From positions 1-15,130 of the forward strand of contig JAIRLL010000089.1 of the NCBI GenBank assembly GCA_031259505.1: a stretch of 15,130 nucleotides of DNA, read 5' to 3'. The position numbers and the translations under genes were made by a program. The notes under the pieces are model-generated. The model did no database searches. It was not told the DNA's origin and saw nothing but the letters and a program-made list of their open reading frames with translations. The stretch is from Tannerella sp. GTDB lineage: Bacteria; Bacteroidota; Bacteroidia; Bacteroidales; Tannerellaceae. The first letter of the stretch is position 1; each line of letters opens with the position of its first letter. Shown in pieces: positions 11,274 to 14,352 of this stretch.

Positions 11274-13586
11274 TTAAAATTTGAAGTTGTACGTGAGGGA
11301 CGGAACGATGCCGAACAGATACATCATTTCGGCATACGGCAGTCCGGTGGCGGCGTCCTGAAGATAAGTTATAATCCACGGATTCTTTTTGTTGTAAGCG
11401 TTGAAGAGCGAGACGTTCCATTCGCTTTTCCAGCGTTTTCCCGAATTTTTGTCGGGCGAGAACGTGAAGGAGAGGTCCAGACGGTGATAGTCGGGACGAC
11501 GGTATTCGTTGCGTCCCGAATAGATCGGGAAATATTCGCCCTGAATATTGAAGCGCCCCGAAGGATAGGTCGTCGGGTTGCCGGTCGCATATATCCATAT
11601 TGCCGACAGGGAGCACTTTCGCGAGAGGTCATAGCTGGCTGCGATATTCAGCGAATGTGTCTTGTCGAAGGGCGCCAGATACGCCTTGCCGCGATTGATG
11701 GCGGGGATTGTGCGTTCGGAACGCGACAGGGTGTAGTTGACGAAGCCGGTCAGCGGTCCCGTGTTTTTTCTGACCATAAATTCCGCGCCGTATGCCTGCC
11801 CGTTGCCGGTGCGTATCTGCCCGTCCAGTTTGTCGTTCAGGAGGAGTTGCGCATGTTCGGCAAAGTCAATGACGTGTTTCAGTTTTTTATAGTACAGTTC
11901 GACGGAAGTCTCGTATTCGTCATTTTTCAGATTGTGGAAATAGCCCAGAGCAAACATGTCCGCTTCCTGCGGCTTGACGTTGGGGCCGGCCGAGAACCAT
12001 ATGTCCATGGGCGAACCTGCGGCAGAATTGTTTGCCAGTTGAATGAATTGCACATTGTGTGCATAATTGGCTTTGATGGACGACGAGCCGCTCAGTTTCA
12101 TCACCATGCCGACACGCGGTTCAAAAGCGGAATACGTATTGTATATTTTTCCCGCTCCGTATACCGTGGAGTCGATGGACCGGTAATTTGCATCATAGTT
12201 GAATACGGTCGCCCTGCCGACGTTTTGAAACAGTGACCAGCGGACGCCATATTTGACGCTGAAACGAGCCGAAATCTTCTGTTCGTTCGATGCGTATATG
12301 CTGTGTTCCAGCGCCCTGTTTCCCGGGATAGCGATGTTGTCAAAGCCTTTTACGGCGACCATGCCGGGGTTGAACGAATGAACCGCAGTCGACAGGCCAT
12401 AGTTCAGATTCCATAAATCGCTGATCGGCCTGCTGAAATCGAATCGCAGAGACCAGTCCGCGATGGATGATTTCCATGAAGCCTGCGCGCCTTCCAGCTT
12501 CGACTCCAGTCCGTAATCGTAGTTTGAGAAGCAGAAGGATATGCTGGAAAAAAAATTGTCCGAAAAGATGTGCGACCAGGCCATCGTGGCCGAGGCGTTG
12601 CCGTAGTCGAAGGAGCCGAGGTTTGCGCCGAAATGGTCTTTCCCGTAATAGCCGCTCAGTTCCAGCCGGTCTTTTCCCGAAAGGCGGTGCGTCACCTTGC
12701 CGTTCATGTCGTAGAAATAGACGGATGCCGACCGCAAGTCTTTATTCGGCGACATTTTGAGGAACAGGTCTGCATAGCTGCGCCGCCCGCCGACCATCCA
12801 CGACGTGTTTTCGCCGACGGGCGATTCCATCATCAGGCGGCTCGATATGAGTCCGATGCCGCCCGTTGCGCCGAACCTGGCGGGTATTTCGGCTTTGGTC
12901 TGTATGTCGAGGAGCGACGACAGGCGTCCGCCATGTTTTGCCGGAATATCGCCCTTGTAGAGCGACAGGCCGCGAAGCACGTCGTTGTTGAATACCGAAA
13001 AGAATCCCAGCAGGTGCGAGGCGTTGTAGACGACGGCATTGTCGAGCAGAATCAGGTTCTGGTCAGGCGAGCCGCCCCGCACGCTGAAGCCCGAACTGCC
13101 TTCCGACACGGTCTGTACGCCCGGCAGCAGCTGTACGGCCTTAAGCACGTCCACTTCGCCCAGCAGCGCCGGCATGCGTTTGATTTCGCCTGCGGTCAGC
13201 TTCTCCACGCCCATATGCAGCGTGGTGACCCGTTCGTCGCGCGCCTGCGACGTGACGGTGACTTCGTACAGTTGCGTATTGCCTTCCAGTCTGAAATCGA
13301 CCGTCTGTCCGCCGCTGCCGGCGATTCTTACCGCGATGTCTTTCTGATAATATCCGAGATACGACGCAGTGAGCGTGTGCACGCCTTCGGGCAGCAGGAG
13401 GGCGTATGTCCCGTCGACAGCCGTAAGCGTGTGGATACCTGTCCCTTTAACAAATACCGCCGCTTCGACGAGCGGCTCGTCCGTGACGCTGTCCGCCACC
13501 CGGCCGGATATGCGCGCGTGCTGGGCGGCAGTCGCCAGGCTCACAGATACAAGCAGAATTGATACAGTATATTTTCTCGTTTTCAT
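11274..13586 (-). CDS. TonB-dependent receptor with carboxypeptidase-regulatory-like domain (DUF4249 partner type)
   Basis: This is a 770-residue outer-membrane receptor. I chose the ATG at 13586 because it begins a proper signal peptide (MKTRKYTVSILLVSVSLATAAQ). The in-frame ATG at 13661 adds 25 residues without signal character and lies upstream of the likely promoter. Domains: carboxypeptidase-regulatory-like beta domain about 24-102 (ISGRVADSVTDEPLVEAAVFVKG...DGTYALLLPEG); plug about 118-230, with MPALLGEVDVLKAVQLLPGVQ, GFSVRGGSPDQNLILLDNA at 166-184, and KGDIPAKHGGRLSSLLDI; then a 22-strand barrel ending in a terminal aromatic (TYNFKF). These plug motifs are those of receptors that partner DUF4249 lipoproteins, and one follows 6 bases downstream. 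The pair probably imports an unidentified nutrient or peptide-like ligand, powered by TonB. The barrel is complete. Confidence 0.93.
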   Translation of the reverse strand: MKTRKYTVSILLVSVSLATAAQHARISGRVADSVTDEPLVEAAVFVKGTGIHTLTAVDGTYALLLPEGVHTLTASYLGYYQKDIAVRIAGSGGQTVDFRLEGNTQLYEVTVTSQARDERVTTLHMGVEKLTAGEIKRMPALLGEVDVLKAVQLLPGVQTVSEGSSGFSVRGGSPDQNLILLDNAVVYNASHLLGFFSVFNNDVLRGLSLYKGDIPAKHGGRLSSLLDIQTKAEIPARFGATGGIGLISSRLMMESPVGENTSWMVGGRRSYADLFLKMSPNKDLRSASVYFYDMNGKVTHRLSGKDRLELSGYYGKDHFGANLGSFDYGNASATMAWSHIFSDNFFSSISFCFSNYDYGLESKLEGAQASWKSSIADWSLRFDFSRPISDLWNLNYGLSTAVHSFNPGMVAVKGFDNIAIPGNRALEHSIYASNEQKISARFSVKYGVRWSLFQNVGRATVFNYDANYRSIDSTVYGAGKIYNTYSAFEPRVGMVMKLSGSSSIKANYAHNVQFIQLANNSAAGSPMDIWFSAGPNVKPQEADMFALGYFHNLKNDEYETSVELYYKKLKHVIDFAEHAQLLLNDKLDGQIRTGNGQAYGAEFMVRKNTGPLTGFVNYTLSRSERTIPAINRGKAYLAPFDKTHSLNIAASYDLSRKCSLSAIWIYATGNPTTYPSGRFNIQGEYFPIYSGRNEYRRPDYHRLDLSFTFSPDKNSGKRWKSEWNVSLFNAYNKKNPWIITYLQDAATGLPYAEMMYLFGIVPSLTYNFKF

Positions 13587-13593
13587 TGCGGGG

Positions 13594-13601
13594 CAAAGAT
13601 A
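13594..13601 (-). promoter_or_regulatory. Bacteroides-type -7 element of the receptor operon
   Basis: On the minus strand TATCTTTG matches TAnnTTTG and ends 8 bases before the ATG at 13586. Translation would then begin at or very near the transcript start, so either the leader is almost absent or the element is fortuitous. No TTTG is found at the -33 position. Confidence 0.4.
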
Positions 13602-13631
13602 CGAACAATTAATAAACCGTGCGTGCAGAAA

Positions 13632-13733
13632 TTTGCTTTCAGTGAAATTTATACTGCGCACGGAACGGAGGAATCACCTGTCCGTTACCTGAAACAGATG
13701 GGAAACTTCAGTTATTTATTTTGCTTTCAGGTA
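13632..13733. promoter_or_regulatory. Repeated TTTGCTTTCAG sites and 9-bp inverted repeat upstream of the receptor
   Basis: The 11-mer TTTGCTTTCAG occurs at 13632-13642 and again at 13720-13730. The second copy overlaps one arm of a perfect inverted repeat, TACCTGAAA (13686-13694) with TTTCAGGTA (13725-13733), 30 bases apart. The sites lie about 30 to 140 bases upstream of the receptor -7 element, a normal place for regulator binding. No regulator is identified. Confidence 0.35.
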
Positions 13734-13861
13734 TAAAGTGGCAGAAGTGTTTGCCTGAACGACAAAACGGCAGCAGCAATCATTGGACAGTTTTTTTTAT
13801 TGATGACTGTTTAATTTCACCTGTTTCGTTTCCATGCAAAAAAGGTCGATAAGACGCTGCC

Positions 13862-13961
13862 CTGCGTCAAGGCATGACGCAGCGTTACGTCAAGGCAGGA
13901 CGTAGCGTTACGTCAAGGCAGGACGCACCGTTGCGTCAAGGCATGACGCAGCGTTGCGTCA
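13862..13961 (+). repeat. 23-bp tandem repeat forming successive hairpins
   Basis: Four 23-bp units start at 13864, 13887, 13910 and 13933, with a 6-base stub to 13961. Each unit is a small dyad around a 7-base loop (AAGGCAT or AAGGCAG). Unit 1 pairs CTGCGTC with GACGCAG. Unit 2 pairs TACGTC with GACGTA, a compensatory A-T for G-C change. Unit 3 has one A/C mismatch at that pair, and unit 4 pairs TGCGTC with GACGCA. In unit 2 the stem extends to 11 pairs with two G-T wobbles when read as plus-strand RNA (13881-13891 with 13899-13909). No gene overlaps it. Confidence 0.85.
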
Positions 13962-14025
13962 CAGATGCTCCATAGACAGTTATATTTTTGCAGAATCTTT
14001 GTTTTCTGATGTTCGACTGTTTCCG

Positions 14026-14068
14026 TCGGAGTGAAAGGATTCGAACCTTCGACCCTCTGCTCCCAAAG
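14026..14068 (-). other. 3' fragment of a tRNA-Pro(UGG) gene, probable attachment-site core
   Basis: Read on the minus strand, 14067-14061 is the anticodon loop TTTGGGA (anticodon UGG). It is followed by the 3' anticodon stem GCAGA, variable loop GGGTC, a complete T-arm (GAAGG-TTCGAAT-CCTTT, 14050-14034), the 3' acceptor strand CACTCCG and discriminator A at 14026. The 5' half is missing. The base at 14068 would still fit the stem, and beyond it the sequence ACAC does not match the expected complement of the stem. No CCA is encoded. Partial copies of a tRNA 3' end that break in the anticodon arm are the usual trace of integrase-mediated insertion into a tRNA gene. Confidence 0.8.
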
Positions 14069-14113
14069 GTGTGGAATTAATTCATTTAATCAGCGAGTTA
14101 TCGATTGAAATAT

Positions 14114-14138
14114 TTAATTTGCTATTAATTTGCTATTA
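14114..14138. repeat. 11-bp direct repeat beside the tRNA fragment
   Basis: TTAATTTGCTA occurs twice in tandem (14114-14124, 14125-14135), with TTA starting a third copy. It lies 46 bases from the tRNA-like fragment on its broken side. Integrase arm sites or excisionase sites often look like this, but the repeat is short and AT-rich, so function is unproven. Confidence 0.5.
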
Positions 14139-14141
14139 TGG

Positions 14142-14169
14142 GGCGGGAGACCTCATTAATGAGGCCGCC
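14142..14169. terminator. Palindrome after the ORF6N-tail remnant, possible terminator
   Basis: CCTCATTAATGAGG (14151-14164) is a perfect 14-bp palindrome. It is flanked by GGCGG (14142-14146) and CCGCC (14165-14169), giving a bulged hairpin of about ten pairs. It begins 9 bases after the stop at 14179 in the minus-strand direction, where a terminator is expected, but no clear T tract follows. Confidence 0.4.
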
Positions 14170-14178
14170 TATATTCAT

Positions 14179-14352
14179 TCACATCTGTACGCGACGAATG
14201 TGCAATTCGGCCAGCGTCTGATTGATAAGTTCCAGTTGCGCCCGTGTATCTTCGTGGATGTCGTTGTAGTCTGCAAAAACTTCGTCGATATAGGCTTTCA
14301 GTTCGTTTATTTCGTGTCTGTATTGTTTTAAATTGGTTGTTTGCCTGTTTCT
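14179..14352 (-). pseudogene. Out-of-frame tail of an ORF6N-type protein (remnant, no start codon)
   Basis: Just after the stop of the ORF6N gene, the +1 frame reads as a plausible protein to a stop at 14179-14181. Its clear part is LKQYRHEINELKAYIDEVF followed by ADYNDIHEDTRAQLELINQ and TLAELHIRR. The frame is open back to 14415 but contains no ATG, GTG or TTG, so it is not a free-standing gene. From memory, this helical ELKxYIxEVFxDYNDIxEDTRxQLELI ending is the usual C-terminus of a second kind of ORF6N-domain protein in Bacteroidales. The stretch could be the remnant of such a gene joined to the present one, or a tail lost by a frameshift. Codon choice (GAC, GAA, CTG) fits real coding on this strand better than the opposite-strand frame. 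Confidence 0.5.

Follow-up and report, generated by a model that had tools for sequence, protein, structure and literature searches.

A tRNA-Pro(UGG) attachment site in a Tannerella contig, possibly used by two mobile elements in succession

The DNA analysed here (the window) is a stretch of 15,130 nucleotides that makes up the entire contig C402 of a Tannerella genome, and it carries a 43-nt 3' fragment of a tRNA-Pro(UGG) gene flanked on both sides by sequence of mobile-element type or possible mobile-element type (Table 1). The explanation with a somewhat better than even chance of being right is a tRNA-Pro(UGG) attachment site used twice, by two different mobile elements in succession. The first would have been a temperate-phage-type element, whose tyrosine integrase used the extreme 3' terminus of RNA genes and which entered tRNA-Pro(UGG). 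The integrase-side arm directly behind the tRNA sequence is present in the window and would be what this older element left there; the element would then have decayed, with loss of its integrase gene. A second element, with an integrase crossing over in the anticodon loop, would later have entered the same tRNA gene and rebuilt the tRNA at its own far end, beyond the right edge of the window. The break point and an arm-like repeat suggest that the 43-nt 3' piece and the old arm were thereby moved to the near end of the later element. The fragment would thus be the attR of that element, with no present role except perhaps as an excision partner. Two events are proposed because a 43-nt core is atypical of the integrase family on the left, because fragments with a break at the anticodon occur often, and because the right flank holds the arm-like repeat. 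The 3'-end and anticodon-loop types of integrase differ in where they cut the same tRNA gene, which would let a later element occupy a used site and sever the old arm from its tRNA.

Table 1. Features around the tRNA-Pro(UGG) fragment, in window coordinates.
Feature	Position	Strand	Basis or remark
Chromosomal TonB-dependent-receptor-type gene left of the scar	11274..13661	-	85% identity and conserved gene order in G025
Scrap DNA	13617..13852	.	dispersed repeat (13651-13720) and gene piece (13721-13785)
23-bp tandem repeat array	13853..13967	.	repeat search; outermost copy overlaps the arm relic by a few bases
Integrase-side (P') arm relic of an older phage-type element	13959..14025	-	motif ATAACTGTCTAT at 13972-13983; motif offset 42
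Attachment core: displaced 3' portion of tRNA-Pro(UGG), tRNA positions 31-73	14026..14068	-	42/43 identity to four relatives
Putative distal end of the later element, or else scrap DNA, reaching the contig end	14069..15130	.	no counterpart upstream of the receptor in relatives' fetched loci
11-bp tandem direct repeat TTAATTTGCTA, 2.3 copies, candidate arm-type sites of the later element	14114..14138	.	repeat search
C-terminal scrap of a second ORF6N-type gene, other frame	14182-14349		sequence comparison
ORF6N-domain gene, sole PF10543 match in its own genome	14351..14947	-	domain search

The tRNA-Pro(UGG) fragment and its break point

Read on the minus strand from 14068 to 14026, the fragment comprises the anticodon loop with TGG, the 3' anticodon strand, the T arm, the 3' acceptor strand, and the discriminator A. 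A search of 61 genomes confirms it as a genuine tRNA-Pro(UGG) 3' piece covering tRNA positions 31-73, as the initial annotation had proposed: it is identical at 42 of 43 positions to intact genes in G010, G025, G031, and G059 (E about 7e-15 to 9e-15), and the alignment to relatives' genes begins exactly at position 31. The single mismatch, a T for C in the acceptor strand, is shared by none of the 43 rows of relatives' intact genes, which include five loci fetched twice. The gene is called intact in all 29 of the relatives' stored loci, with further rows that have no locus. The range first assigned to the fragment, up to 14181, was too long, as 14069-14181 is not tRNA. The 5' half, which had been described as missing, is indeed absent from the 1062 nt between the fragment and the contig end. 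No tRNA is called anywhere in the window by ARAGORN or Rfam, as is expected of only half a gene, and Rfam at a loose E-value returns four weak matches in 13900-14300, none of them a tRNA. An exact search with the 43 nt gave no copy in genome contigs and none in viral contigs, and matches in phage and plasmid records were limited to tRNA-Pro and ORF6N-type pieces. Two other origins were considered and rejected. The first, an intron in the anticodon loop, lacks a 5' exon up to the contig end; against the second, a native half-gene left from an ancestral tRNA at the neighbouring receptor operon, stands the absence of any tRNA-Pro call from the 11 receptor loci retrieved from relatives, some of which have just a few hundred bases upstream (one locus has a tRNA-Leu and one a tRNA-Val).

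The fragment reaches the 3' terminus of the tRNA gene, as the displaced 3' fragment of a tDNA-integrated island should, and its other end falls where such fragments commonly break. With a first pair of patterns, tRNA-Pro(UGG) fragments broken at the anticodon were found at no fewer than 10 of 120 viral loci (among the matches listed) and at 1 of 39 genome loci, leaving aside two further rows merely cut by locus edges; a second pattern set gave 38 of 112 loci. Across the merged set of 48 fragments (47 viral, 1 genomic), identity to the tRNA 5' half ends 0-7 nt 5' of T32 in every case, and in the window it ends after 1 nt. All of the patterns require TTTGGG onward, and breaks further 3' lie outside the sample. 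This agreement bears out the proposal that the break lies at an integrase crossover subsite.

The genome is a 2.65-Mb assembly in 417 contigs, 80.8% complete, and the relatives used for comparison are Tannerella-labelled MAGs, presumably of termite-gut origin to judge from their isolate codes. The tRNA genes Pro(GGG) and Pro(CGG) are found in the assembly, while Pro(UGG) is missing and a second copy of the fragment of such length was not found; at this completeness and contig number the absence of tRNA-Pro(UGG) copies means little. Neither the intact tRNA-Pro(UGG), nor the later integrase, nor the far end of the element is present in the assembly, the contig ending at 15130, about 1 kb to the right. 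An anticodon-loop integrase was not recovered in the genome, where the two PF00589 genes are XerD- and XerC-like. When the tRNA-Pro surroundings of G025 were compared with the genome as a 7-kb query, the far end alone matched a contig. Several relatives' contigs (L042, L051, L053, L058, L060, and others) stop a few hundred bases 3' of tRNA-Pro(UGG), as would be expected of a variable integration site.

The left flank and its integrase family

Comparison with relatives identifies the sequence directly left of the fragment (13959-14025) as an integrase-side arm belonging to a phage integrase family that they carry. Its motif lies 42 nt beyond the tRNA end, a distance of 41-44 nt being found in 13 other arms, and with a scoring matrix built without the window none of the 818,790 background positions, taken from 30 other loci, reaches the window's score. 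In an earlier shuffle test on 34 distinct tRNA-Pro flanks, the best score was reached by 1 of 2000 shuffles and the second best by 0 of 2000. The window also matches the anchor string at 12 of 12 bases, a match that is not independent because G004 and the window itself supplied the anchor; the arms of G035 and G000:C140 match just 9 of the 12. Similarity to relatives' arms stops at 13959, at the 23-bp repeat array. The integrase start expected 130-151 nt past the RNA end is absent, and since the array stands in its place the arm is a relic only. The intact RNA gene of an attL is likewise wanting, the tRNA 5' half being absent from the window. The array (13865-13961) is matched at 79% identity in G021:C198.

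In G004 and G028 a frame matching phage integrases (the match was tested for G004) begins shortly after an intact tRNA-Pro(UGG), and the G004 protein finds matches in 15 of 295 genomes. In all 11 same-genus loci an RNA gene has its 3' end 130-151 nt ahead of the integrase start; in four more distant loci an RNA gene lies upstream in three (tRNA-Leu, tmRNA, and tRNA-Pro(UGG)) and none is called in G080. The 13 same-genus arms, which are these 11 loci plus those of G009 and G007 (the G007 contig stops inside its arm), follow tRNA-Pro(UGG) in 3 cases, tRNA-Pro(GGG) in 4, tmRNA in 5, and tRNA-His in 1. One integrase family with one arm design thus occupies four RNA-gene targets in one genus (L356-L364, L329, L330, L322, L325). 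By its gene content G033:C173, which carries an endolysin and a tape-measure-like protein along with the family integrase, marks the family as phage-like. Decayed members occur: in G009 the integrase is cut, by eye, to its first 7 codons, and the window's own genome holds a degraded family integrase with two stops after a tmRNA gene (L363, G000:C140, 119-439). A second core copy, to mark the far end of a related element, was not found in G033:C173 1-28500 by exact patterns and blastn, nor in G279:C56 5000-82000 or G269:C114 with 2-3 mismatches allowed. On viral contigs, 21 of the 35 rows found for the family integrase were looked at. A called RNA gene precedes the integrase in 6 of them and a tmRNA end truncated at the edge of the locus in 2; the sequence is too short in 3 and shows nothing recognisable in 2, and the other 8 are of attP type. 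The RNA core is short in all eight attP-type loci (about 9-20 nt by eye), and TAGAC/GTCTA sites occur 2-5 times within 150 nt 5' of the core in six of them and not at all in two. Because these cores are short, the left family does not readily give a core of 43 nt, a comparison drawn with integrases about 36-42% identical to that of G033 and with an attP sample that holds none from this genus. The viral contig L404 has three consecutive tRNA-Pro(UGG) genes upstream of a related integrase, and in L035 (G031:C243) what appears by eye to be the start of a second integrase family, apparently frameshifted, lies a few hundred nt after tRNA-Pro(UGG).

The strongly supported left arm also lends itself to an explanation by this phage family alone, which is unlikely but the best of the alternatives. 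The fragment would then be a broken attL of the 3'-end family, its 5' half lost by deletion or rearrangement, and the right flank would be chromosomal scrap with a common ORF6N gene. Decay within the family, as in G009 and G000:C140, is consistent with such a history, as are the rearranged local chromosome and the chromosomal position of ORF6N in G005. Two observations speak against a single phage: the break coincides with the point at which all 48 comparison fragments lose identity, and an arm-like tandem repeat stands at the expected place in the right flank.

The right flank and the receptor operon

To the right of the fragment, TAATAGCAAAT occurs twice near -70, and 3 of 1000 shuffles hold an 11-nt direct repeat in 120 nt. 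Tandem repeats of period 10-12 starting at -95 to -66 are found in 6 of the 40 distinct fragments with enough upstream sequence, as against 86 of 8000 random positions (1.1%) and 0 of 129 intact-gene upstreams. The closest look-alike is L489, with GCAAGTAAATA twice at -73. An element extending to the right, as first proposed, is plausible, and the later anticodon-loop element would be its likeliest form; the arm-like repeat and the break at a crossover site speak for it, but plain alignment of the right flank to the flanks of the other fragments is not above shuffles, 122 of 500 reaching the score. The ORF6N genes were rejected as evidence of an element, being widespread (among the 8000 entries scored) and chromosomal in G005. 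The smaller ORF6N piece looks as if a deletion had fused two tandem genes.

Against the reading with two successive elements stand the failure to recover an intact tRNA-Pro(UGG) and an anticodon-loop integrase, the low share of comparison fragments that bear such repeats, and the wide and chromosomal occurrence of ORF6N genes. Because tRNA-Pro is not found beside the operon in relatives, a rearrangement or a chimeric contig must also be added to it. With element-type DNA perhaps on both sides, the arm, core, and right flank might alternatively belong to one element, in an attP-like or tandem-array junction, or the right flank might be a secondary chromosomal target of ectopic integration. Tandem and secondary-site integration have a precedent in SGI1, in the part of that report available (PMC2297512), but the first 934 nt of the right flank contain none of the left family's TAGAC/GTCTA sites, whereas most attP-type loci bear them, and the cores of those loci are short. 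Such a junction is improbable.

The receptor operon is chromosomal, as its synteny shows. Eight window proteins, from a PG0541-type protein to the receptor, are collinear with G025:C29 at 79-93% identity, and DNA similarity to G025 stops at 13616. A phospholipase A1 gene (PLA1, PF02253) lies upstream of the receptor in G025, and a look-alike frame is seen by eye at that place in G010. The PLA1 gene of the window's own genome lies on C205, a contig with its first bases reading into the start of an InsA-type (IS1) transposase. Given the end of similarity at 13616 and the position of PLA1 by an IS1-type end, the adjacency seen in G025 is broken on both sides. The usual neighbour of the receptor being on another contig, rearrangement is probably involved and the host boundary would lie nearer 13617. 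The initial annotation was thus right to regard the operon as host DNA, and its boundary has to be moved away from the edge of the fragment. Within the scrap DNA that follows, the dispersed intergenic repeat is 77-90% identical on five other contigs of the genome, and the gene piece is a scrap of a gene that in G001 and G028 forms an ORF of about 570 aa (84-86% DNA identity, with an in-frame stop). Elsewhere in the window, a 42-bp tandem repeat of 4.3 copies with several frames open lies at 2285-2465, and a 683-aa open frame at 3-2051, of about 64-65% GC and with no Pfam or NCBIfam match, is not found in the G025 stretch.

These observations bear on the model first put forward, a single element on the right with native host DNA from the left edge of the fragment onward. 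The break point, the orientation, and the syntenic operon are all compatible with it, but the 67 nt to the left, which it assigns to the host, hold another phage family's arm motif at the family's offset and at a score unmatched in the background, and the operon's neighbour in relatives sits elsewhere in the genome. A single right-hand element with host DNA directly to its left is accordingly disfavoured, with a marginally smaller chance than the attP-like or ectopic junction. Least probable of all is a chimeric join made in assembly, at the scar or close to it. A 417-contig assembly, the mosaic sequence at 13617-14068, and neighbours split between contigs might suggest one, but a random join there would not place the tRNA piece and the arm in register.

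Comparison with known integration systems

Displaced tRNA fragments are usually read by a simple rule, with the element on one side and the host on the other. If two elements did use the site in succession, this rule would misplace the boundary here, because the supposed host side bears the arm of an older phage. The related loci form a small natural experiment, in which a phage integrase lineage changes its RNA-gene target and keeps its arm sites; as one lineage and one arm design follow at least four RNA genes within the genus, target switching is directly testable. The joint reading, in which the scar is a two-layer record and one integrase lineage with one arm design has settled after at least four RNA genes in one genus, is given an even chance. 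Among the titles and abstracts listed in the literature, none concerns this locus or a tRNA-Pro gene hit twice.

Anticodon-centred sites and displaced 3' fragments are of well-known kinds; in the available part of the Islander report, 2083 islands are anticodon-centred and a 3' fragment is present in 3760 of 3919 islands (PMC4383910). Like the displaced tDNA fragments of the A subsite described there, the window fragment ends at the discriminator and is broken at the anticodon loop, and its broken side faces the supposed element. It differs from that signature in that the intact cognate gene and the integrase were not recovered and in that the host side bears the arm of another phage. The attL sites of the MARRKKE..PHLNDCGGDL phage integrase family of Tannerella-labelled MAGs share with the window an arm motif at equal offset from the tRNA end, while the window has neither the integrase gene nor the tRNA 5' half. 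The IMG/VR tRNA-Pro(UGG) fragments L489 and L434 have an equal break and tandem arm-like repeats 5' of the core; unlike the window, they carry an additional period-11 repeat 3' of the core, and in L489 an open frame close 3' of the core is a candidate for its own integrase. What appears to be new is the second layer, on the side taken for host, together with the use of a single arm design at four RNA-gene targets within one genus. All parts are of known kinds, yet the order in which they would have been laid down is unusually readable.
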